Virus record (IMG/VR): IMGVR_UViG_3300047509_000176
Span: 1 to 42,959 of that record
Source of the DNA: a virus
Length of the DNA: 42,959 bases
Reading direction: 5' to 3' (one strand)
The translations under genes and the position numbers were made by a program. Shown here piece by piece: positions 1 through 42,959 of the stretch (the stretch's first letter is position 1; every line of letters begins with the position of its first letter). Below the pieces are notes generated by a model that did no database searches, was not told the origin of the DNA, and was given only the letters and a program-made list of their open reading frames with translations.

Positions 1-189
1 CAGCCATGCCAGCGCTAGCTGACTGGGTTTGCAGTTCTTTTCTTTAGCGATGGATTCCACGCGGGCGACCAGATCGAGGTTCTTCTGGAAATTCTCGCCC
101 TGAAACCGCGGCGAAAAACGGCGGTAGTCGTCAGGCGCGAAGTCCTCGAAACGGTTGATCTGGCCAGTCAGAAAACCTCGCCCGAGCGG
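1..189 (-). pseudogene. Aldo/keto reductase, C-terminal fragment cut off by the prophage
   Basis: Read on the minus strand from 189, the codons give PLGRGFLTGQINRFEDFAPD, then a segment containing RRFSPRFQGENFQKN and NLDLV, and run off the window at base 1. This is the canonical middle-to-C-terminal segment of NADP-dependent aldo/keto reductases, where PLGRGFLTG follows the strand AYSP. Its own start is lost. The matching 5' part is at 42589..42959. The fragment also overlaps the last codons of the phage integrase, which reads a different frame through the same DNA. It continues beyond the window on the left. Confidence 0.93.
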
Positions 190-1691
190 TTTTCGACATA
201 GCCACAGAGCGCCGGAGCGGTCACAGCGACCCCCTGGACCTGGTAATTTGCCACGCGGATTTCAGGAACCGTGACCGCCAGGATGCGGCGTTTGCTTTCC
301 CGGTTCATGAACTGCCAATCGAACAGCGGCGCGAACGCGGTCATGAGCGACCGCAGCGAGACCTTCTGAGGAGGAGCCTCGCGGACCAGCGAATCCTTCG
401 TGCCCTTCAGCCGCGTGTCGATTTCAGAGAGACGCTGGTCGCGCTCGGCGCGCGTGAGGACCGCTTCGAAGAAAGCGTCCAGGACGCGGGTTCGCTTCGC
501 GCGGAGGTTCGTGAGGTCCGCCTGCAGCCGCGTGATGCGCGCGCGAGAGCCGTCCGTTTCGGATTTGGCGTCGAGAGCGCGGAGCAGGCCGGCCATGAAC
601 TCCCGGTTGGTGAGCCGGTCGGAGAAAATACCGTCGAGCTTCCCCTCGAGGCGGTCTCGATTCATGTACTTCGTGAGACACCTCTCGCCGACACGCGAAT
701 CGAACCGCTGCCGGCACACGTAGTAAAACCCGCTGCCGTCCCGCCCGTACAGGTTCGACCCGCACTCACTGCACTGCAGGAACCCGTTGTAAGTGAAGTT
801 GTGCTTCACGCCGGAGCGGTGGCGCCAGTGGTGGGAGTCCTTGAGCGCGACGATTTCCTGAACGCGCTGAAACTCCGTGTCGGTCACGAGCGGAGTCGAG
901 ATGACCTTCACGCGAATGACCTCGTCGGGATCGCGGAGGATCTTCGGCCGGTCGCCCTGGCGGCCGCCGGCGGAGTAGCGCTTTGCGCTCGGAGCCATGT
1001 TCCGTTTTTTGTTGTAGACGCGCCAGCCGGTGTAGATCGCATTGGTGAACAGCGTCCGCATTCCCTGCGCGGTGAACCCGAGTGGCTTCGCGAGCTCGGT
1101 GTAGCTGGTCTCGCCGGATAGCAGCCGACGAAACGCGTCGCGGACCATTTCGGCTTCGGGCATGAAGAAAAACCCTTGCTCCTTGGAGTAGCCCACGCCG
1201 AACGGGAGATTAACGCTGCAGCCGGTGTGCTTCCCCGCGCGGCGCATTTCTTCCTTGGCGCTCCAAACGCGCTCCCGAATTTCCGAGAGTTCGTTGCCCG
1301 AGATGATCGCGCGGAGGCCTGCAACAAGTTTTCCAGTTTTGCTGTTGAAGTCCAGAGGCCCATCAGGGAGATACAGCAAAGTGCCGGTGTCCTGAAAAAC
1401 CTGGAAGAGCACGTAGTCGCCGAAGTTGTCAGGACGCATGACGCGAGAGAACTCGCGCACCACCACGCCTTTGATTTCGGGAGACTCGATGAGCCGGAGC
1501 AGTTCCTGCATCTCCGGCGCGCGGAGCACGGCAGTGCCTGAGACGTCCGACATTTCAACGGTCTTGATGATGGTGAGACCGTAGGCCGCAGCGGTCTTGC
1601 GGTTCGCGGCCTTCTGCGCCGGGATGCTCGCGCGGTCGTCGCCGGCTTGCTCGGATGTCGAGACGCGGATGAGCTCAATGACTTTTTTCAA
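168..1691 (-). CDS. int: Large serine recombinase (phage integrase), 507 aa
   Basis: This enzyme should integrate and, with a directionality factor, excise the prophage. It has an N-terminal resolvase catalytic domain (about 4-150, nucleophile Ser11 in IRVSTSEQ, arginines in EFSRVMR). A recombinase DNA-binding domain follows (about 155-285). Next come a zinc ribbon with Cys307, Cys310, Cys326 and Cys338 and a coiled-coil segment (about 385-435). I chose the TTG at 1691 because AGGAGG lies 6 bases upstream and the catalytic domain begins there; the open frame extends 28 residues further without a credible start. The last four residues (GEVF) and the stop are encoded by host DNA left of the attL core. 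In circular phage DNA the frame would instead run 20 codons further. Its start overlaps the end of the small upstream gene. Confidence 0.95.
   Translation of the reverse strand: MKKVIELIRVSTSEQAGDDRASIPAQKAANRKTAAAYGLTIIKTVEMSDVSGTAVLRAPEMQELLRLIESPEIKGVVVREFSRVMRPDNFGDYVLFQVFQDTGTLLYLPDGPLDFNSKTGKLVAGLRAIISGNELSEIRERVWSAKEEMRRAGKHTGCSVNLPFGVGYSKEQGFFFMPEAEMVRDAFRRLLSGETSYTELAKPLGFTAQGMRTLFTNAIYTGWRVYNKKRNMAPSAKRYSAGGRQGDRPKILRDPDEVIRVKVISTPLVTDTEFQRVQEIVALKDSHHWRHRSGVKHNFTYNGFLQCSECGSNLYGRDGSGFYYVCRQRFDSRVGERCLTKYMNRDRLEGKLDGIFSDRLTNREFMAGLLRALDAKSETDGSRARITRLQADLTNLRAKRTRVLDAFFEAVLTRAERDQRLSEIDTRLKGTKDSLVREAPPQKVSLRSLMTAFAPLFDWQFMNRESKRRILAVTVPEIRVANYQVQGVAVTAPALCGYVENRSGEVF
182..189. other. 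attL: attL core (8 bp, CCGAGCGG)
   Basis: This is the longest exact match shared by the two phage/host junctions; flanking bases differ on both sides (c181 against g42622, t190 against g42631). To its left the sequence is aldo/keto reductase coding DNA, and to its right it is phage integrase coding DNA. A short core is usual for large serine integrases, which exchange strands around a 2-bp centre. Here the core lies inside the integrase reading frame, at codons 501-504. Confidence 0.88.
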
Positions 1692-11125: not shown

Positions 11126-12837
11126 GGGATCTCCCTCGGAACTTCCTGCAGCGAGAGCAGAGACTCGGCGTGCTCCGTGCTGTCCCACTTGATGGACACG
11201 CGGTCTTCCTCGAGCCGCGCGAGCGTGAGAAACGAGACCATCGTGGTCGCCGCCGGGAAGTTCTTCCCGGGTTGCGCCTCGAGGGTGAGGTTCTCCGTGC
11301 CGTCGCCGTTGTCGATTGCGCCGGTGACCTTGGCGTACACATTTCCGGTGCGGTCGACGGGGATGAAAGCGATGAACCGCCGCGCCGCCGTCGGAAAGAA
11401 AAATCGCGAATAAAACTCCGACTTGATCCTGATGCCCGAGTCCGTCGAGAGCACGTCCTGGTAGAGCACGAGGTCCTGGTCCCACGTCGGAATCCAGAAC
11501 GGATTGAGCTGCCCGAACCGCCGGAGCATGAACGCGCGGAACGCGGTCACGTTCGGATGCGTGTCGAGCCACCACGGAAACTCCTGGCCCACGAGCGCTG
11601 TACCACCTTTGTCGATGACTTCAATCGGCCCGACTTTCGGATCGACGGTCACCATCGACCGCTTATAGCTGCGCTTGAGCGGCGACTTCTCCCAGTTCGG
11701 CGGGATCTCCAGGACGTCGAAACCTTTGAACTGCGTCGGCGACGTCGCCGGCGCCGGCGCCGGCTGGCCGGCCTCGCCGATGAAGTTCAGGTCCACCTGG
11801 TCGATTTCGCTGCTATGCCTCGAGACGTCGACCGCGGCCGGGAGCCGGCAGAGGAAAACCGGAATCACGCGCGTCTGAGGCCCGCCCTTCCAATCGAGCA
11901 CCGTCGGAGAAGAGACCGTCACCGAATCGGGATTCACGGTCACGATGGACAGCGCCTCGAACGTGAACTCGTCGACCCAGATCGTTACCAGTCCGCCGGC
12001 CGCGAACTGGCGGTCCGCCGTCGACACGGGAATCACAAACGTGCCGGCCGAGATATCGGAGAGCAGCGGCTGCGCGTCCGGCCACCACGGGACGCCGAAT
12101 GGCTGGTTCTGCCAGCCCCAGATGAGCGACTCCATCCCGGCCGCGTCGCGCGCGTTGAGCGTGAGCGCACGGTAGCGCATCGCGCGACGTGGCAGCCGGC
12201 GAAGCGCGCGACGCTGCTCGCTGTCGGAATAGGAGCGGAGCACATCCGTGAAGTACTCGAGCGTCTCCTCCATTCCCTCGCCCCACTCCGGCGCGACAGA
12301 GAAGAGCACGATACGAGAGCCGGTGATCTCGAGGTCCGTGCCGGCTACGCTGCTAAGAAAAGCGAAGACCAGCGACTGGCTGATCTGCGCCGGTCCCGCG
12401 CTCGGGACAGTCGCCTGGTAGATGAAAGAATCGAGCGCCGCGAAAATCAGCGGCTCGCCGTGGATATCTGCGAGCGTGAGACCGCCGGCGCCGGAGATGG
12501 TGATGGACTCGAGCGTCTGGTCAGCATCTCTGAAAGCGTTCCAGACCTCGACAGCGAACTGCGTCGCAGAGAGAACGAACCCGAGCGCCTTCACGCGCGG
12601 AACGATGATGACCTTCTCGAAGAGTTGTCCGCCGAAGGCCTCGACGCGCTGGCCGGCTAGATTGTGGTGCGCGATGGCGACTGCTGGCTGCGGGACGCCG
12701 GCATTGCCTATCAGCGGAGAAGACGCGCGACTGATGGATAGCGCGCTGGTGAACAGCGCCGACGTGATATCCGATGAACGATTCGCCGGGTCGAGCCGGA
12801 CGTCGAAAGAGAAGAGCTGTCCTGCAAAGTTCGCCAT
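11122..12837 (-). CDS. Distal tail structural protein, 571 aa
   Basis: A large beta-rich virion protein without transmembrane parts. By position between the tape-measure side genes and BR0599, it corresponds to the distal tail (DUF2460/gp12-like) component that joins tube to hub, although it is longer than that family. It has an Asn/Thr-rich segment and a tryptophan-rich stretch (GVPWWPDAQP). The start follows AGGGGACTG, and the end overlaps the BR0599 gene by GTGA. Confidence 0.75.
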   Translation of the reverse strand: MANFAGQLFSFDVRLDPANRSSDITSALFTSALSISRASSPLIGNAGVPQPAVAIAHHNLAGQRVEAFGGQLFEKVIIVPRVKALGFVLSATQFAVEVWNAFRDADQTLESITISGAGGLTLADIHGEPLIFAALDSFIYQATVPSAGPAQISQSLVFAFLSSVAGTDLEITGSRIVLFSVAPEWGEGMEETLEYFTDVLRSYSDSEQRRALRRLPRRAMRYRALTLNARDAAGMESLIWGWQNQPFGVPWWPDAQPLLSDISAGTFVIPVSTADRQFAAGGLVTIWVDEFTFEALSIVTVNPDSVTVSSPTVLDWKGGPQTRVIPVFLCRLPAAVDVSRHSSEIDQVDLNFIGEAGQPAPAPATSPTQFKGFDVLEIPPNWEKSPLKRSYKRSMVTVDPKVGPIEVIDKGGTALVGQEFPWWLDTHPNVTAFRAFMLRRFGQLNPFWIPTWDQDLVLYQDVLSTDSGIRIKSEFYSRFFFPTAARRFIAFIPVDRTGNVYAKVTGAIDNGDGTENLTLEAQPGKNFPAATTMVSFLTLARLEEDRVSIKWDSTEHAESLLSLQEVPREIP

Positions 12838-25079: not shown

Positions 25080-25734
25080 TCAGTGTGCTGGAGGCTTAGC
25101 TCGCGCCGCCGCTTTTTCCGCCTTCAAACGACGCGCGGCATCTGCTACTGATTCTGGAAGCGTGTCCAAGGCATCTTGTGGCGCTTGGACTATCGGCGCC
25201 GCCGGATGCACAAGTCACCTGCGCCGGCACGGTGTCGCTAGCCTTTCGTACGGAAACGGTTTCGACCTCCGTATCTTGGATGCCGGCGAGATCGCCGTCC
25301 GTGAATTCGTGCATTTTCAGTTTCCCGTTTTCCAGCACTTCCTTCCAGTGCTTCGCGAGACACTCCGCGACGGACTGCATGTGGCGTCCGCCTTTTTGGC
25401 AGGTGTAGCTGTAGATCAGATTCTTCGACTTCCGCTCGGTGACGCTCATGGACACGCGTTCGTAAGCGCCATCCATGTACACTCCGACCATCAGAGCAGT
25501 CATGACACCTTTCGTCTTCGAACCTTCATTCGTAGCCCACGTGAATCTCGCAACATAGCCGGCCTGTTTACGGTCTTCCGTCAATGTGACCGGGACGCTC
25601 TTTCGGATGACGCCAGCCGAGAAGTCGTTTGCAAATTCATCCTTCGATTCGACGAACACGGTGGGACGACTGGTCTGAGCTAAAGCACCCGACGCCGTCA
25701 TCACCGACAGAAGCAACAGAGCAAGTGCTTTCAT
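25080..25734 (-). pseudogene. Secreted cargo protein with a likely +1 frameshift near its C-terminus
   Basis: The 5' frame encodes a signal peptide (MKALALLLLSVMTASGALA, cleavage near AQT) and a domain with PTVFVESKDEF and LAKHWKEVLENGKLKM. It stays open to a TAA at 25096 (212 aa), but the last 40 residues are Ser/Arg/Cys-rich and do not look coding. From about 25217, the +1 frame reads VHPAAPIVQAPQDALDTLPE, then SVADAARRLKAEKAAARAKP, to a TGA at 25080, an ordinary C-terminus. The genuine gene thus seems shifted by one base near 25215-25225 through mutation, sequencing error or recoding. The product would be periplasmic or secreted. It resembles bacterial host proteins more than virion proteins, so it is probably lysogenic cargo. 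Confidence 0.65.
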
Positions 25735-25952
25735 CGTTTATCTCCTAGTACAGAGTTTAACTCAGTATCGGACGTCTTGATCGTAATACGGACTTCGGTG
25801 ATGCGCTTTCCAGCAATGCCCGGACGCGCGCGGATCTGTTTGAGGCCGCGGCTGGCGGCCACGTCGAAACTTCCGGCGTGGACCGTGACGGTTTGCCACG
25901 CAAGGTGAGCCTTCACTTCGGGAAAGAACGCCGTGACGGAGAAGGACTTCAT
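25731..25952 (-). CDS. Hypothetical protein, 73 aa
   Basis: Unrecognised. Pattern MKSFSVTAFFPEVKAHLAWQ..VTVHAGSFDVAASRGLKQIRARPGIAGKRITEVRITI suggests a compact alternating beta/helix domain. The gene is joined by ATGA to both neighbours in a continuous cassette, so it is co-translated with the secreted cargo protein. Confidence 0.68.
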   Translation of the reverse strand: MKSFSVTAFFPEVKAHLAWQTVTVHAGSFDVAASRGLKQIRARPGIAGKRITEVRITIKTSDTELNSVLGDKR

Positions 25953-26173: not shown

Positions 26174-26436
26174 GACTTCGCTCCGAACAATTTCCGAGCG
26201 CCTTCGAGCTTGGCGACGACGCCGGCGACGGTGAGAGCGCTCTCGAAAAGAGCGAGACAGGTCGTGGTGACCGGATCGCGGAACAGGACGACCGGACCTT
26301 CGTCCGATTCCTGGACCCCGACCCACTGCGCCTCTGCGAGTTCGACGATGCGTTCAGACTTGGACATTGCGATTGTTCCTCCGTTGAAAGCTGCTGACAT
26401 TTCTTCTGCGAGAGAGTGGAGCGTCGCTGCGGTCAT
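26170..26436 (-). CDS. Hypothetical protein, 88 aa
   Basis: Unrecognised small protein. Begins MTAATLHSLAEEMSAAFNGG; the body has VELAEAQWVGVQESDEGPVVLFRDPVTTTCLALFESAL, suggesting a small sheet with a flanking helix. The start shares ATGA with the upstream gene. It is part of the cargo cassette between terminase and connector. Confidence 0.65.
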   Translation of the reverse strand: MTAATLHSLAEEMSAAFNGGTIAMSKSERIVELAEAQWVGVQESDEGPVVLFRDPVTTTCLALFESALTVAGVVAKLEGARKLFGAKS

Positions 26437-26609
26437 GGTTTCACCGACGGCGCGACGCGTTTGAATTCCTCGGCGACCAGTCGTGCGAGCACTGCCTTCA
26501 TGGTCGACTTGGTGAGCGCCGCGATGATTTTGAGCTGCTCCCGGACTTCCTGCGTGGTGAGGATCATCGCGGGAGCCGTGTTTCCACTCTTGGCTGCGCG
26601 CGGGGTCAC
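26433..26609 (-). CDS. Small putative ribbon-helix-helix protein, 58 aa
   Basis: GTG at 26609 behind GGAGGAAATC. The core MILTTQEVREQLKIIAALTKSTMKAVLARLVAEEFKR has a strand, a charged helix, and a second helix ending in EEFKR, the layout of ribbon-helix-helix (ParD/CopG-like) DNA-binding proteins. If so, it would be a second such gene in this cassette, besides the plus-strand one. Regulatory role is inferred from fold only. Confidence 0.55.
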   Translation of the reverse strand: MTPRAAKSGNTAPAMILTTQEVREQLKIIAALTKSTMKAVLARLVAEEFKRVAPSVKP

Positions 26610-27160
26610 GATTTCCTCCAGCGCAGGATGCGGACCTTGCCGGAGTACCAAGAGTCACTCGTGTCGGAGACCGTGCCGACGCCGCGCTCCGGGACGCTGT
26701 CCATGATTTCCCCGTTGCCGACGTACACCGCGACGTGCACTCCACGGAAGTCAAGAACATCGCCGGCGCGGAGAGATTGCCGGTTCACCTTGGCGAGACT
26801 TTCGACTTGCTGAACCACTTCGAGATCGTCGGCGCACCCGTTCCACATTTTGAGAGCCGAGCACTGCGCGTGACGCTTCGCGATGCAGATGAACTGCGAG
26901 CAGGACACCGTGGAGTACTTGGTTCCGCGCAGCGATTCGAGACGGGTGACGTAATCGGATTTGGATATCGACGCCGCCGGAAGCGCCAGGAGCGTGAGAG
27001 TGGCGAAGGCCAGGCCCGCGGCGCGGACTGCTTTCCTTCTCTTGAACAGGCCCACGAACTTGCTCCACAGGGAGCGGTCGAACAGGATGACAGGGACGCA
27101 CTCGGGAACCTTCGCCCGGTCTTCCCACTCCCTGAATGTCTTTGCCGCTTTGGTCTTCAT
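26606..27160 (-). CDS. Membrane-anchored NlpC/P60-like cysteine peptidase, 184 aa
   Basis: A basic N-terminal segment is followed by a membrane helix (about 46-66, AGLAFATLTLLALPAAS). The rest is an NlpC/P60-type domain with candidate nucleophile Cys87 in TVSCSQFICIAKRH, LRAGDVLDFRG (130-140) and His142 in GVHVAVYVGNGEIMDS. It should cut peptide stems in peptidoglycan. It is encoded with cargo genes, not the tail genes where such a peptidase often sits, and its anchor suggests action from the lysogen's membrane. A TATAAT lies just upstream. Catalysis is predicted, not shown. Confidence 0.72.
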   Translation of the reverse strand: MKTKAAKTFREWEDRAKVPECVPVILFDRSLWSKFVGLFKRRKAVRAAGLAFATLTLLALPAASISKSDYVTRLESLRGTKYSTVSCSQFICIAKRHAQCSALKMWNGCADDLEVVQQVESLAKVNRQSLRAGDVLDFRGVHVAVYVGNGEIMDSVPERGVGTVSDTSDSWYSGKVRILRWRKS

Positions 27161-27185
27161 GCTTGCCCCTCTCTAACCTAAAGAC

Positions 27186-27217
27186 ATTATATAGGTGTAT
27201 TGTATTGTATAGCTATA
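27186..27217. promoter_or_regulatory. Divergent regulatory region: TATAAT, three TGTAT repeats and a palindrome
   Basis: On the minus strand, TATAAT (27191..27186) precedes the peptidase gene, without a good -35. Next to it are three exact tandem TGTAT copies (27196..27210) running into the palindrome TATAGCTATA (27208..27217). Ribbon-helix-helix repressors often bind short tandem or palindromic repeats. On the plus strand, TTGACA (27245..27250) with TAAAAA 18 bases later points at the adjacent ribbon-helix-helix gene. Confidence 0.5.
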
Positions 27218-27281
27218 GTACGTTGGTACGGGGTAGGAGGCATGTTGACAGCTAGTACCCTAAAGAGGTAAAAATGGAAAT

Positions 27282-27449
27282 ATGCAGAAGAAATCACGCA
27301 AAGACGGGAAGGTTGCTATATTTGCTCTTATAGAGCCTCAGCAGAAAGCAGCTCTGGAGGAGCTCGGACGGGCAAACGAACGTTCCATCGGGTTTCTGGT
27401 ACGCGAAGCCATCGCCCAATACCTCGCGAATCTAAAGAAAAAGGGTTAG
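27282..27449 (+). CDS. Ribbon-helix-helix (CopG-type) regulator, 55 aa, only plus-strand gene
   Basis: The protein has a basic N-terminus (MQKKSRKDGK), a strand VAIFALIEPQ, helix QKAALEELGRANERSI and helix GFLVREAIAQYLANLKKK. This is a clear CopG/Arc-like fold (first strand, then LxELxxANxRSxGxLVREAIxxYL). It is transcribed against the whole phage and ends at base 27449, immediately before the terminase stop at 27450. No strong ribosome binding site fits (AGAGG is 13 bases upstream), and a predicted start near 27281 would make the mRNA leaderless. It is a candidate lysogenic regulator of the divergent cargo operon. Confidence 0.75.
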   Translation: MQKKSRKDGKVAIFALIEPQQKAALEELGRANERSIGFLVREAIAQYLANLKKKG

Positions 27450-29378
27450 CTAGCGCCATCCTTGGACCCAGGACGACCCACCGCCGGCACGCCCTGGCCC
27501 CCCGCTTGACCCGCCGGACCCGCCCTCCTGCCCGCCGCTTGGCTCAGTTGGAGGTAGACGCAGCGCCGCGGCCATCTCCCCGAGCTTGCGAATCACAGCC
27601 TGACCCAGGACATACAGTGCCGCCAGCGCGTAGACCTCGAGGTCGAGCGCCTCATTGCGCGCGCGAGTCTTCACATATTCCCGGATCGTGCCGCGTCCGC
27701 GGCGATAGCGACGGATCGCTTTCTCGGAAGTGAGCTGCGCGAGGTACTCGTCGTCGATGAAGTCTGGCAGGTGAAGGTAGCCGGCGCCAGGCGCGGGAAT
27801 TTTCATCCGGGCAAATATTCGGTCCTTCGCCGTGTCGGTGCCAATCATCCACAGACGCACGCGATACTGATTGTTGACGCTGAACTTCCCGAGGATTTCC
27901 TTCCCGGATTCGCTCGAGCCTTTCAGCGCGAATACTTTCCGGTTCTGCCGCGCGCGGACGAACCGATAGACGGAGTCGGTGTGTTGGCCGCCTGAGTCGA
28001 TCATGGTGCAGGAGAGTTTCACCTTCTGGCCGGACTCGTGTTCCCACGTACCGAGGAGAAACGAGTCGAGCTCGTTCCACACTTCCTCCTGGCCGGGATC
28101 GCCGAAGAGTTGCTGGTAGGCGATGAGCCACGACTCCTCCTTGTCGCCCCATCCCTTCACCACGCATTCGAGGCGGTCGCTCTGGACGTCGACGCTCGCG
28201 GTGAGCAGGCCCACGCCGTCCGGTACCTCCGCCTTATACGGCTCCCTCCGAGATCTCAAGGAGATGGCCTCGACGGCATCGCCGTCCTCTTCCCACGTTT
28301 CGCCAAGTCGCAGATTGATGAACGCGCGAAGCTTCTCGACGTTCTTTTCCTCGTTCGCTTCGTGCCACTCCTGCGCGAGATCCATCCAGTTGTCGCGCCA
28401 GGGTGAATAGAGAGCGTTGATGTGAAAGCCTACGATTGGACGGTCCGGCTTTTCGGCAATCCACCTGCCGGCGTTCAGCATCTGCTGTTTGTAACGTTCG
28501 GGAATCCGCTTTTTGCAGGAGGCGCAGACGAACGCGACGCTGTCGGGAACCACCTGGTGGTCGGCGGTCGTTTCGTAGGTGAGGCAATATTCCTTCGTGA
28601 CGGGGTTCCTCCACCAGAGCACCTGCTCCACAGAGCAGAACGGACAAGGCACAAAGAACCTGCGCATGTCGCTGCGAAGGAACGCGCGCTCTATCGGCGA
28701 TGTCCCTTTGGCTTTCGCCGGCGTCGAGCCCTTCACGATTTTGTAATCGGGAAACTGGTCCGTGCGCCGGGTGCCGATGGCGATGGGATCTCCCTCGCCC
28801 TCGACGTCCAGCGGATAGCCGTCCACTTCGTCGAAGAGCACCACGGGCACAGGATCGGAGCGGAGGCCTGCGCCGGAGTTCGCTCCGGTCAGTTTCAGGA
28901 ATCCGCCAGGGAATTCCTTCAGCGAGAGGGTGTTTCCAGCGCGGCGCGACGTGGGGGGCCGGATCTTCTTTCGGAGCACGGCGCAGTTTTCGATCATCGG
29001 CGTAATGGCCTTCTTGCCTTTGTCCTTCGCGTTGTCGATGGTCGGCTGCACGAGCATGATCGGCTTGGGGTCCGCGTCGATGTAGTAGCCGATGATGTTG
29101 AGCAGGATGGCGTCGGTGAATCCCACCTGCGTGCTCTTCTGGATCACCACCTCGTGGACGAGCGGGTTCAGGATCACGTCCATCATGGCGACCTGGAAGA
29201 CCTCCGGCCGGAACTGGCCCGGCCGGCTCGTGGTGCCCTTCGGGAGACTGCGGTTTCGAATCGCCCACTCTGAGATGGTGATGTCCGGCGGAGGGTTGAA
29301 GTGCTCGCGCACGCGAGCGAGCATCGCCTGGAAATTCACCTTCGCGGATTCATGAGTCTGACTCTCGACGGTCGTCAC
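27450..29378 (-). CDS. Terminase large subunit, gpA family, 642 aa
   Basis: This is the packaging motor ATPase and nuclease. It shows a Walker A-like KSTQVGFTD (81-89), Walker B VVLFDEVD (179-186), a Cys4 zinc site (C245, C248, C285, C288), and a nuclease domain beginning with SVDVQSDRLE (395-404, Asp397). The C-terminus is Gly/Ser-rich. It belongs to the lambda gpA class, associated with cos-type cutting. The GTG start shares GTGA with the small subunit stop and has AAGGAGG upstream. The stop abuts the convergent plus-strand regulator. Confidence 0.93.
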   Translation of the reverse strand: MTTVESQTHESAKVNFQAMLARVREHFNPPPDITISEWAIRNRSLPKGTTSRPGQFRPEVFQVAMMDVILNPLVHEVVIQKSTQVGFTDAILLNIIGYYIDADPKPIMLVQPTIDNAKDKGKKAITPMIENCAVLRKKIRPPTSRRAGNTLSLKEFPGGFLKLTGANSGAGLRSDPVPVVLFDEVDGYPLDVEGEGDPIAIGTRRTDQFPDYKIVKGSTPAKAKGTSPIERAFLRSDMRRFFVPCPFCSVEQVLWWRNPVTKEYCLTYETTADHQVVPDSVAFVCASCKKRIPERYKQQMLNAGRWIAEKPDRPIVGFHINALYSPWRDNWMDLAQEWHEANEEKNVEKLRAFINLRLGETWEEDGDAVEAISLRSRREPYKAEVPDGVGLLTASVDVQSDRLECVVKGWGDKEESWLIAYQQLFGDPGQEEVWNELDSFLLGTWEHESGQKVKLSCTMIDSGGQHTDSVYRFVRARQNRKVFALKGSSESGKEILGKFSVNNQYRVRLWMIGTDTAKDRIFARMKIPAPGAGYLHLPDFIDDEYLAQLTSEKAIRRYRRGRGTIREYVKTRARNEALDLEVYALAALYVLGQAVIRKLGEMAAALRLPPTEPSGGQEGGSGGSSGGPGRAGGGSSWVQGWR

Positions 29379-37364: not shown

Positions 37365-38117
37365 TCATGTGAAACAAAACGCCGTATTGCACCCGGCATC
37401 CTCGCCAACGGAACCGTCCGCGAAGGCGACCTGGTCCAAAGGGACGCAGGACATGTGGAGGTAGAAGTACGGGTCGACCGCACGCATCTCCCGCTCGAGC
37501 TGGACCGCCGCCGCGAAGTCCGCCGGCCAATTTTGCTTCATGTCGAGCCACTCCTCGTCGCCGGCGTTCGGGCACATCCAGCACGCCGAGCGCGGAGGTC
37601 GCGGCCAGCCGAGAGCCTCGAGCAGAGCCAGACAGCCGCGGCGACGCAAGCGGAGCTCCCAAACGATTGGGTAGTAGTGCTGAATCCAGCCTCGGTGCGG
37701 CCGGCGGACGCGGCGCATCTCGTCGAGCGAAATCCCGAACCAGAGCCGGCACGTCTTCACGCCGACGGATCGGAGCCATCGCTCGATGACGTCACGCTTC
37801 CACGTTCCCGAGCAATAGTTCGAGAGCTTCCCTTTGACGTCGAGCGTGGTAAAGCCTGGGAGCAGCGGCGAACTCTCGATGTCGAACAGTTGGACCCGTG
37901 TGAACGCATCGCTGCGGACCCGCTCGATACACACGCCGGCGAATTTCAATCGTGGGTAGAGTTCGGCGTCGAAGTATTCCCACGTTGCGGACCGCTCGCG
38001 CCCGGTGTCGACGATGATGGCCAGATCTGGACGCGGAAGTTTGCCGGAACAGATCGCCGCGCCAATCGCAGCGCTCTGCGTCCCGCCGCCGCAACACCAC
38101 ACTTGAGCGTCGATCAC
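37365..38117 (-). CDS. PP-loop ATPase, PAPS-reductase-like, 250 aa
   Basis: The N-terminus VWCCGGGTQSAAIGAAI (6-22) holds the PP-loop. IIVDTGRERSATWEYF, SNYCSGTWKRDVIERWL, WFGISLDEMRR and CWMCPN follow, as in phage 3'-phosphoadenosine-phosphosulfate reductase-like proteins of the adenine-nucleotide alpha-hydrolase family. Such proteins activate a substrate with ATP, sometimes for sulfur transfer; the substrate here is unknown. GTG at 38117 follows AAGGTGCCGGC, and its start region is repeated at 38777..38793. Confidence 0.82.
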   Translation of the reverse strand: MIDAQVWCCGGGTQSAAIGAAICSGKLPRPDLAIIVDTGRERSATWEYFDAELYPRLKFAGVCIERVRSDAFTRVQLFDIESSPLLPGFTTLDVKGKLSNYCSGTWKRDVIERWLRSVGVKTCRLWFGISLDEMRRVRRPHRGWIQHYYPIVWELRLRRRGCLALLEALGWPRPPRSACWMCPNAGDEEWLDMKQNWPADFAAAVQLEREMRAVDPYFYLHMSCVPLDQVAFADGSVGEDAGCNTAFCFT

Positions 38118-38129
38118 GCCGGCACCTTC
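38113..38129. repeat. 17-bp repeated stop/start junction, copy 1 (copy 2 at 38777..38793)
   Basis: GAAGGTGCCGGCGTGAT on the minus strand is identical at 38113..38129 and 38777..38793. Both times it ends one protein in KVPA-stop and starts the next with GTG, through a GTGA overlap. The gene pairs on either side are otherwise unrelated. Confidence 0.75.
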
Positions 38130-38326
38130 CCTCGCTCCATCCGAACGTTCGCGATTCCGCCGGCGTAAAGGTGCGGACCCGTGTAGCCAGCCTCCGCCTC
38201 GAGCCGAAGAACCAGAGCGTCGACCTTTCGCAAACATCCGCGACAGGTCGCACGGTCGCCGCCGTTCAACACGGTGTTCACCCGGAGCTTCCTACAGAGA
38301 GCGCAGCGTCGCCGTGGTCGCTTCAC
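38114..38326 (-). CDS. Small zinc-binding protein, 70 aa
   Basis: CALCRKLRVNTVLNGGDRATCRGC (9-31) forms a Cys4 ribbon between basic arms, and the rest is helical. AAGGAGCCGAC precedes the GTG at 38326. It overlaps both neighbours by GTGA. Its last residues (RGKVPA) recur as AEKVPA at the end of the 76-aa protein at 38778..39008. Confidence 0.68.
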   Translation of the reverse strand: MKRPRRRCALCRKLRVNTVLNGGDRATCRGCLRKVDALVLRLEAEAGYTGPHLYAGGIANVRMERGKVPA

Positions 38327-39492: not shown

Positions 39493-40668
39493 TCAGTGAC
39501 CTCGCCGGCCGGGATGTGAGACTCGACGCGTTCCGCGTCCGCCGGCTCTTTCCGCGCTGGCTTCTTCTTGCCCGCCTTCTTTTTCTTCGCCGGGTTCCCG
39601 GACTTGCCCTTCTTTTTTTTCTTCACTTCGTGTTTCCTCCTTTTTGTTGACCCTCTCCACCGCCGACTGCCGGCTGTCCGGCGCGAGGTGTGCGTACTTC
39701 ATGGTCATGGTGATGGACTTGTGCCCCAGAAGTTCCTGCACCGTCCGAATGTCGACACCGTTCATGACCAGGCGCGAAGCGAACGTGTGCCGGAGATCGT
39801 GCCAGCGGAAATTCTTGACGCCGGCTTTCTTCGCGGCGTCCTCGAGCCATCGCCGCGAGTCGCGCTTGAGGCCTTCACGAGCATCGGGAGAGACGTGCGT
39901 CTTTGTGCCGGTGATCGCCTGCAGTTTGCGGAGAGCAGCGCACGCTGCAGAATTCGCTTTGACTTGCCGCCTCCCGGTTTTTCCGTGGACCGTCAGGTCC
40001 GCCTGCTCCGTGCCGTCCGGCGTGGTTCCGAATACAACGTTCTGCCACTCCAGCCAGAACTGCTCGCCGCGGCGCATGCCGGTGTTGATCGCCAGGTCGA
40101 GCTCCATCTCGTGGGAGTCGGCCACGAGAGCGTCGCGGATCTGCTTCTCCTCGTCGCCATTCAGCCATCGGAGCCGCGACTCGTTCTCCTTGTAGCGTTT
40201 GACCTTGGACATCGGGTTGACACCGATGCGGCCGGCGAGGACGGCGAACTTGTAGATCGAAGAGATGAGCGCGTGAAAGCGGTTCACCGTCGAGCCGCTC
40301 ACTCTGCGCTTGAAGTGCGCGAGCGTTTCCTCGATGCGCGCCGGCGTCAGCCGGTCGGCCGGAAGATTGCCGATGAGTGGGAGGAGCTGCTGCAGTCGCT
40401 CGTTGTCGGTTTCGTAAGATGTGGGAGCGAGCCGGAGTTTCTTCCGTGCCATCGCGGCCTTCGCGAGTTCTCGAAACGTGAGCCTCGCGCCGGCACGAGG
40501 CGGGATGTAGCGTCCCTCTTTGACCTCGAGCCGGCGCCGGCCGAGAGCATCAAGTGCAGCGGAGCGCCGGCCGGCTTTCTCGCGGTGACGCTTGCCCTCG
40601 CCGTCACAGTAGGAAATCCACCACACTCCGCTGCTCGGGGGACGCTCGAAGATGCCACGGATCGGCAT
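39493..40668 (-). CDS. Tyrosine recombinase (phage integrase family), 391 aa
   Basis: An N-terminal Arm-like segment, a SAM-like core-binding domain (about 64-150) and a catalytic domain with a complete set: Arg199 in TGMRRGE, Lys230, His290 and Arg293 in WHDLRHTFASRL, His316 in LGHKSIT and Tyr325 in KYAHLAP. A Lys/Glu-rich tail (about 340-391) is unusual. ATG at 40668 begins MPIRGIFERPPSSGVWW, typical of such integrases. It is a second site-specific recombinase in this prophage, far from both attachment cores, so its target is not evident. Confidence 0.92.
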   Translation of the reverse strand: MPIRGIFERPPSSGVWWISYCDGEGKRHREKAGRRSAALDALGRRRLEVKEGRYIPPRAGARLTFRELAKAAMARKKLRLAPTSYETDNERLQQLLPLIGNLPADRLTPARIEETLAHFKRRVSGSTVNRFHALISSIYKFAVLAGRIGVNPMSKVKRYKENESRLRWLNGDEEKQIRDALVADSHEMELDLAINTGMRRGEQFWLEWQNVVFGTTPDGTEQADLTVHGKTGRRQVKANSAACAALRKLQAITGTKTHVSPDAREGLKRDSRRWLEDAAKKAGVKNFRWHDLRHTFASRLVMNGVDIRTVQELLGHKSITMTMKYAHLAPDSRQSAVERVNKKEETRSEEKKEGQVREPGEEKEGGQEEASAERAGGRGTRRVSHPGRRGH

Positions 40669-40673
40669 AAGGC

Positions 40674-41420
40674 CTAGCTGATGACGGGGACTTTCGTCTG
40701 CTGACCATCGAGCCACGCCTTGATCGCCGCGACGGCCGCGAGTTTCCATCGACCGCCGTCGCCTTCGAACAGTGCGAGCAGTGGCGAGCCACTCTCACCC
40801 TCGTACTTGGCTCGGAAAACAAACTGTGAAAGCACCTGGTCGATTTCAGCGAACGTGCGATATGGCGCGAGGTTGACCATCGGCTTCAGGACCGTCTCGG
40901 CCTTCAAGGAAATGCCCTGTTTGACCGCGACGCGCTGCGCGAATCCGTCGTCGACGTTTTCGCTGGTGTGTTCCGCGGTGATCTTTGACGCGATGCCGAG
41001 CACGTAATCCAGATCGTGAGCGAAGTCGCCGGCCGCGGTTTCAACCTTCACGCGTTGGAAGTGCTGCTGGAGCGCAATGACGAATGCCTCCGGCCTGTGC
41101 CACACGCCGAACTTGAACGTCTCAATCTGCGGGTATTTCGCCATCGCCCACACGCGGAGATGGCCGTATGCGTCGTGCGCGTTCTGAATGAGTTCCACTT
41201 CGGTCGGCGAAGCGACGCGGAGAAAAACGGCCTCCGGTTTGAGATCGTCAAATCCCTCGAAGATGAGGTCCACCAGACCCTGCAGCGTGGAGCACGTGAT
41301 CACGGTGGGAACCGGCGGGTAAATCAGGTGCAGATTCTTGTCGGTATACTCGAGGTCCCCGTGCTCCGAGATGTTCGGCGGCGCGAGGGAGAGAATTTTT
41401 TCGATAGCTTCTTTGATCAT
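40674..41420 (-). CDS. Early-region phage protein, 248 aa
   Basis: Segments LHLIYPPVPTVITCSTLQGL, VDLIFEGFDD, then FKFGVWHRPEAFVIALQQHF and MVNLAPYRTFAEIDQVLSQF, then LLALFEGDGGRWKLAAVAAI, are in a style I associate with proteins beside recombination and replication genes. I cannot name the family. AAAGGACGCGC precedes the ATG. It directly precedes the tyrosine recombinase. Confidence 0.65.
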   Translation of the reverse strand: MIKEAIEKILSLAPPNISEHGDLEYTDKNLHLIYPPVPTVITCSTLQGLVDLIFEGFDDLKPEAVFLRVASPTEVELIQNAHDAYGHLRVWAMAKYPQIETFKFGVWHRPEAFVIALQQHFQRVKVETAAGDFAHDLDYVLGIASKITAEHTSENVDDGFAQRVAVKQGISLKAETVLKPMVNLAPYRTFAEIDQVLSQFVFRAKYEGESGSPLLALFEGDGGRWKLAAVAAIKAWLDGQQTKVPVIS

Positions 41421-41845: not shown

Positions 41846-42163
41846 TTAAGCGCGCGCGAGTTTGGGTTTCGGTTTCAGTTTCAAGGAGCGCGGTCGGTAG
41901 CGCTTGTGGCCGACTTCGCGAAAGTGCTGAAGGATGTCCTCGATGGTGAGCTCGAGCTTGCGCTCTTTGGCGAGCTCCAAAACCTTGATCATGTTGGACG
42001 GATGCGGAGACGCGGAACCGTCAATCCAGTGCCAGATTGCGGAGGAGCCAACAAACCCGAGCCGGCGCGCGAGCTCCTCTACGCCGTACTCGCGAAGGAA
42101 TCGGTCGAACTTCGATTTCTCGTACGTTTTCCCGTACGGACCGCAGCACGATTTTCTCGCCAT
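41846..42163 (-). CDS. Helix-turn-helix regulator (Cro/XRE-like), 105 aa
   Basis: FDRFLREYGVEELARRLGFV followed by GSSAIWHWIDGSASPHPSNM is a helix-turn-helix in the Cro/C1 style, then a helical part and a Lys/Pro-rich basic tail. AGGAGGTTCG precedes the ATG at 42163, and paired repeats lie just upstream. It is transcribed with the early genes, so a Cro-like or early activator role is possible; it does not look like a CI repressor. Confidence 0.68.
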   Translation of the reverse strand: MARKSCCGPYGKTYEKSKFDRFLREYGVEELARRLGFVGSSAIWHWIDGSASPHPSNMIKVLELAKERKLELTIEDILQHFREVGHKRYRPRSLKLKPKPKLARA

Positions 42164-42181
42164 CGAACCTCCTGAAGTTTC

Positions 42182-42227
42182 GGCAGACGGTTTTTCGGGG
42201 ACGGTCTGCCAGCGGCCCACTCGTGGG
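42182..42227. promoter_or_regulatory. Two inverted repeats before the HTH gene
   Basis: GGCAGAC (42182..42188) pairs with GTCTGCC (42204..42210), extendable by two bases past one mismatch. CCCAC (42216..42220) pairs with GTGGG (42223..42227). They lie between the stop of the 80-aa gene and the ribosome binding site of the HTH gene, suiting an operator or transcript stem-loop. Confidence 0.45.
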
Positions 42228-42588: not shown

Positions 42589-42959
42589 TCAGGAGGGGGT
42601 GTAGCTATATCGAAACCCGCTGCCGAGCGGGCTGTACGCTACGAAAGCGATGCCCAGTTCGCGCGTGGTGGGGAGAATTTCGTCCTCGGGGTCGCGTGTC
42701 CATAGGGAATACTCGGTTTCGAGCGCGGCAATAGGATGGGCGTTGTGGGCACGGCGAATCGTTTCCGCGGAGGCTTCGGACAAACCGATAAATCTGATTT
42801 TTCCTTCGTGGACAAGCTCGGCGAGCGCGCCAACGGTTTCTTCAATCGGCGTTTTGGGATCGACGCGATGCTGATAGTACAAATCGATGACCTCGACACC
42901 GAGACGCTTCAGGCTGGCGTCGCAGGAGGCACGGACGTAAGCACGAGTCCCGTTGACAC
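42589..42959 (-). pseudogene. Aldo/keto reductase, 5' part, truncated by prophage insertion
   Basis: From the window edge, the minus strand reads [80 protein letters not shown] and VAYSPLG. This is a clear NADP-dependent aldo/keto reductase with the active-site His in YYQHRVDP. After the core it reads 11 phage codons ([10 protein letters not shown] and stop at 42589). The start of the gene lies beyond the window. A truncated barrel lacking its C-terminal third is unlikely to be active. Confidence 0.93.
42623..42630. other. attR: attR core (8 bp, CCGAGCGG)
   Basis: Matches the core at 182..189. Reading minus, the host AKR codons AGC CCG CTC GG join phage DNA here, and at attL phage codons CGC TCG G join host codons. 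Reconstructed attB is AKR coding DNA (SPLGRGFLTG), and reconstructed attP is inside the integrase coding frame. Confidence 0.88.

Follow-up and report, generated by a model that had tools for sequence, protein, structure and literature searches.

A 55-residue ribbon-helix-helix protein as a candidate moron repressor in a prophage of a phage group linked to Acidobacteria

Introduction

What is the role of a very short gene that stands alone against the direction of an entire phage? We address this question for a ribbon-helix-helix (RHH) gene whose product has 55 amino acids, encoded in an IMG/VR virus record. The window, that is, the whole stretch of DNA analysed here, is this record of 42,959 bases. 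A sequence-only reading of the window had described the gene as CopG-like, placed it between a divergent cargo operon and the terminase gene, and proposed it as the best candidate for a regulator expressed in the lysogen. We consider the reality of the gene, its neighbors, its distribution among relatives, its candidate control sites, and the known systems that it resembles.

An integrated prophage with one opposing gene

The aldo/keto reductase of the host is split in two, with one half at each end of the window (Pfam PF00248), and a tyrosine integrase gene lies within (Table 1). Together, these features show that the sequence is an integrated prophage, so that the lysogen is no mere assumption. 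The host is a soil bacterium, and the phages of the RHH group are linked to Acidobacteria. The attachment site falls inside the reductase coding region; a short GCCGAGCGG-like core, GC-rich in composition, is common to both ends (~171-189 and 42612-42630).

Inside the phage, a codon-usage scan gives a positive coding score to a single plus-strand ORF, the RHH gene, in agreement with the earlier observation that it alone faces against the phage direction. A second plus-strand ORF with a positive score, 42736-42957, shadows the host aldo/keto reductase gene at the right edge of the window.

Table 1. Coordinates of the features discussed, as positions in the window
Feature	Position	Strand	Basis or remark
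Host aldo/keto reductase part	1-210	-	Pfam PF00248 positions 188-248
Further cargo genes	25096..25952	-	
Cargo gene, protein with apparent signal peptide	25096-25734	-	
Cargo gene, small, conserved	25731-25952	-	
Cargo gene	26433..26651	-	44-aa product at 26436-26567, MILTTQEVREQLKIIAALT...
First divergent cargo gene, membrane-anchored NlpC/P60-like protein	26606..27160	-	
Candidate RHH operator O1, TAACCTAAAGA	27174..27184	+	CTWWAGR enrichment; at predicted cargo transcription start
-10-like TATAAT of divergent cargo promoter	27186..27191	-	Alignment; inference
Palindromic box AGTAC-N4-GTAC	27217..27230	.	Conserved; head of cargo operon
-35 TTGACA of RHH gene	27245..27250	+	Conserved across loci
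Candidate RHH operator O2, TACCCTAAAGA	27256..27266	+	CTWWAGR enrichment; between -35 and -10 of RHH promoter
-10-like TAAAAA of RHH gene	27269..27274	+	Ends 7 nt before ATG
RHH (CopG/Arc-type) gene, 55 aa	27282..27449	+	Pfam RHH_1, AF2 model, purifying selection
Terminase large subunit gpA (terL)	27450..29378	-	Convergent with RHH, abutting
Tyrosine integrase	39493..40749	-	
Cro-like HTH regulator gene	41846..42220	-	Precedes early genes
Host aldo/keto reductase part	42589-42957	-	Pfam PF00248 positions 81-196, matched by 42592-42957

The RHH gene and its conservation

The ORF starts with ATG, has no alternative in-frame start upstream, and encodes MQKKSRKDGKVAIFALIEPQQKAALEELGRANERSIGFLVREAIAQYLANLKKKG. 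Its product scores above the curated cut-off of Pfam RHH_1 (E=4.3e-5; 23.8 bits, cut-off 20.5), which bears out its description as CopG-like. In an alignment-based AlphaFold2 model of the monomer (pLDDT 81.5), helices span residues 19-32 and 36-54, the two helices expected after an N-terminal ribbon; a monomer model cannot display the ribbon strand. The best Foldseek neighbours are the RHH domains of CopASO, ParD, PutA, and ORF56, with Arc and CopG ranking lower; with 39 aligned residues, weak E-values are to be expected, and the best is 0.06. A PDB search with a profile of nine RHH sequences leads to CopASO as well.

Lack of a conserved reading frame in related phages would have counted against the earlier reading. 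Counting the window itself, the frame is kept in nine loci, the others being seven IMG/VR contigs and a single MAG from Acidobacteria. The relatives share 51-82% identity over the alignment, codon-position differences across the nine loci (645/503/1185) fall mostly at third positions, and dN/dS between the window gene and its nearest relative is 0.09. Judged by this comparison, the ORF is a genuine gene under strong purifying selection at the protein level. No relative is present among 50,697 GenBank phage records. In the phylum of the MAG, the gene is found in 1 of 396 genomes, namely that MAG, which marks RHH as phage-linked and rules it out as a gene of Acidobacteria chromosomes at large. 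RHH shows that a gene below the usual ORF cut-offs can be selected and be a probable regulator.

The junction with the terminase gene

The stop codons of RHH (27447-27449) and terL (27450-27452) leave a gap of 0 in the window, exactly as first described, and they overlap or abut in 6/6 terL-linked phages (-4 to +3 nt) despite terL ends of varying length. Furthermore, no plus-strand terminator-like site was found in 26900-28400. Both observations would suit a scheme in which the RHH transcript acts as antisense RNA to hold terL down and the protein matters less. We regard this scheme as highly improbable: purifying selection acts on the protein, and three of the nine loci (L003/L010, L005/L011, and L008) keep the divergent cargo region with RHH away from terL. 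Antisense transcription into terL, raised in the sequence-only reading, is possible given the lack of a terminator in that interval; as a function it is weakened, and it is not a conserved feature, since RHH leaves terL in these three loci and retains its control region and passenger genes.

Distribution among related phages

On the terL tree, RHH is scattered: 6 of 31 rows have it, which requires at least three gains or losses. It is absent altogether from 12 related records of at least 35 kb. It is an accessory, optional gene, not the master switch of the phage. Its positions away from terL are diverse: near an integrase in L003/L010; in L005/L011, downstream of a tail-tape gene and a Cro-like gene and ahead of terS; and, in the mosaic phage L008, with a Cro-like gene and an integrase as neighbours. 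Across all nine loci, RHH is divergent from small passenger genes, with a similar control region between them, so the divergence first noted in the window holds throughout. The stable partner of RHH is, from these arrangements, the cargo control region and not terL.

The slot just after terL has other occupants. In L018 (locus about 11930-12690), it holds a counter-transcribed Gp49-type toxin/HTH antitoxin pair; the slot has thus taken lysogen-type modules more than once.

RHH promoter and candidate operators

The RHH promoter is called on conservation across loci and not on a sigma-70 consensus scan, which returned no strict promoter. All nine loci carry a TTGA[C/T] element, which in eight of them starts 34-38 nt upstream of the ATG. 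A -10-like TAnAAA follows, terminating 6-8 nt ahead of the ATG across loci; the leader of L004 is longer and contains AGGAGG. Placed there, the -10 element predicts that transcription begins at the AUG or immediately beside it, and hence a near-leaderless mRNA.

The motif CTWWAGR occurs 14 times in the nine RHH control regions against a shuffled mean of 2.1 (0/2000 shuffles with as many) and twice in 26 RHH-less slots. The nine regions are related, so that the count overstates independence; the RHH-less slots are, in addition, somewhat GC-richer. Three loci (L004, L008, and L011) have degenerate versions only, with no exact site. In the window, the two sites O1 and O2 form a direct repeat. These CTWWAGR repeats are the best operator candidates.

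The sequence-only reading had pointed instead to three TGTAT repeats and a 10-bp palindrome. Both are present: the TGTAT triplet (27196-27210) is unique in the window, with 0 expected, and the palindrome TATAGCTATA lies at 27208-27217, at a frequency no greater than chance (328/2000 intergenic shuffles hold a 10-bp palindrome). Neither is conserved in relatives, and we rejected them as an operator.

The GTAC box and the cargo promoter

The cargo promoter has a -10-like element and no recognisable -35, which suggests that it uses an activator. Next to it lies a palindromic GTAC-N4-GTAC box, found in 8/9 RHH loci, sometimes in imperfect form, with a half site in L004; its distance to the cargo side is nearly fixed and its distance to the RHH promoter is variable. 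This close tie to the cargo promoter in RHH loci raises the question of whether RHH acts mainly through the box, as repressor or activator. We consider that unlikely. The box follows terL equally in RHH-less phages (L013, L021, L022, L023, L025, L026, L028, and L030), and the near-full records among these lack RHH; the box was accordingly rejected as the RHH operator. A scan with a matrix built from 15 sites, with L023 and L025 left out of the building, finds a single strong box in each phage, whether or not RHH is present, and in every case it stands where the cargo operon begins. Present as it is without RHH, the box is best read across these phages as a cargo-promoter element.

The box also resembles RGTACNNNDGTWCB, which we take to be the LexA/SOS consensus. 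A LexA/SOS box was rejected: no such site precedes lexA in the Acidobacteria MAG, and GTAC-type sites show no genome-wide enrichment there (38 versus 58 for reversed-pattern controls).

Cargo genes and the absence of a toxin partner

The first divergent gene varies between phages. In L009 (7902-8049), the conserved N-terminus of the NlpC/P60-like protein is fused straight to its last residues, and the enzymatic NlpC part is missing. The 44-aa cargo protein (26436-26567, -) is conserved in phages with and without RHH. A weak likeness of this protein to RHH is unproven; as an RHH paralogue it was rejected, with no PDB profile match and a probability of 0.5% in profile comparison with RHH.

The nearest solved structures of the RHH protein, CopASO and ParD, are antitoxins, and the protein gives a weak match to a RelB-like antitoxin model. 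In addition, a toxin/HTH pair fills the same slot in L018. RHH could in principle be a DNA-binding antitoxin whose toxin lies in the cargo, and we give this idea little credence for several reasons. Searches of the cargo by Pfam, NCBIfam, and PADLOC recognised no toxin family; RHH has no co-transcribed partner and no plus-strand partner gene; the first divergent gene differs from phage to phage; and a protein of 55 aa is too short for a toxin-binding tail.

Lysogeny control and the Cro-like gene

Several features would fit RHH as the lysogeny maintenance repressor of the phage: it is counter-transcribed in a prophage with an integrase, its predicted near-leaderless promoter recalls those of lambdoid repressors, and in L008 a homologue of the Cro-like gene follows it on the same strand. 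RHH had been favored as the lysogen regulator on the ground that no CI repressor was recognisable. That argument overlooked the Cro-like HTH gene (Table 1), which has homologues in related phages with the region available, including L008, L011, L018, L039, L041, L042, and L043. Its profile matches Cro and the Gp39 repressor structure (2hin, E 1.6e-5), and six of seven members match P22_Cro. The gene is apparently core to the phage group, in the early operon, and makes a stronger candidate than the accessory RHH for the core control of lysogeny. RHH, by contrast, is missing from the 12 large related records, is patchy on the terL tree, and is not conserved across temperate relatives, and its candidate sites, within the control regions and slots searched, are at the cargo. 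A role as maintenance repressor is therefore very unlikely.

Comparison with known systems

Salmonella phage P22 has two RHH repressors, Mnt and Arc. Their genes belong to the 'ant moron', an insert in the late operon whose presence varies among related phages; the prophage is expected to express Mnt, and late readthrough is described for this locus as well (PMC2629481). The P22 immunity I region and the window share a short RHH repressor, putative in the window, in a late-operon moron of a temperate phage, and both units are variably present among related phages. The differences are as follows: immI controls an antirepressor (ant) and has the sar antisense RNA; the target of RHH would be variable passenger genes; the P22 moron has a position other than after terL; and RHH is not closely related in sequence to Arc-like PHROGs (E 0.15 or worse). 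No antirepressor family was recognised among the cargo genes tested, and for this reason we treat the likeness to P22 as a working principle and do not claim immI membership.

Other systems illuminate single features. In PY54, the mRNA starts of cI and cro map at or next to the AUG (PMC4488713). The RHH promoter is placed as in these leaderless temperate-phage repressor mRNAs (lambda cI; PY54 cI and cro), which encode HTH regulators with known starts; the RHH start is predicted. By profile and fold, the CopASO and ParD antitoxins (PDB 6iya, 6xrw) are closest to RHH, which differs from them in lacking a toxin partner and a C-terminal toxin-binding segment. Finally, Salmonella prophages have accessory loci that are expressed in the lysogen, and independent transcription of a gene against the lytic genes is typical of them (PMC7067206); RHH likewise runs opposite to the lytic genes.

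A proposed role for RHH

We propose that RHH is an autoregulated moron repressor of the divergent cargo, similar to P22 Mnt and Arc, and assign this reading a probability of roughly 0.55. RHH would be a small dimeric repressor, part of an accessory moron that a temperate acidobacterial phage carries as an insert behind terL, and made in the lysogen from its own near-leaderless promoter. It would bind CTWWAGR between the -35 and -10 elements of that promoter, limiting its own synthesis, and CTWWAGR at the start of the opposing promoter, repressing the cargo. In this manner, both promoters would be repressed and the cargo kept at a low or tuned level as long as the late operon stays silent; the RHH transcript may enter terL antisense as a by-product. 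A local cargo regulator remains the best reading of a gene with its own conserved promoter, a divergent cargo, and a lysogenising prophage. Two further observations weigh against this reading: many relatives keep the cargo without RHH, which is thus not needed for cargo expression, and the residues of the strand expected to read DNA are unusually hydrophobic (KVAIFALI).

A broader arrangement is conceivable, and we offer it as speculation. The RHH gene, its operators, the GTAC box, and the divergent cargo promoter may form a self-contained cassette exchanged among temperate acidobacterial phages at varied genome positions, in which RHH would gate a second regulator acting on the single-copy, group-specific GTAC box: a two-input switch for lysogenic conversion.

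The phages of Acidobacteria, bacteria abundant in soil, have received little study; for phages linked to this phylum, the analysis documents an arrangement resembling P22 immI. It also provides concrete candidate control sites and a single-copy cis element common to the whole phage group. Elsewhere in the window, 37365-38237 (-) encodes an auxiliary gene product resembling phosphoadenosine phosphosulfate reductase (PHROG 424).
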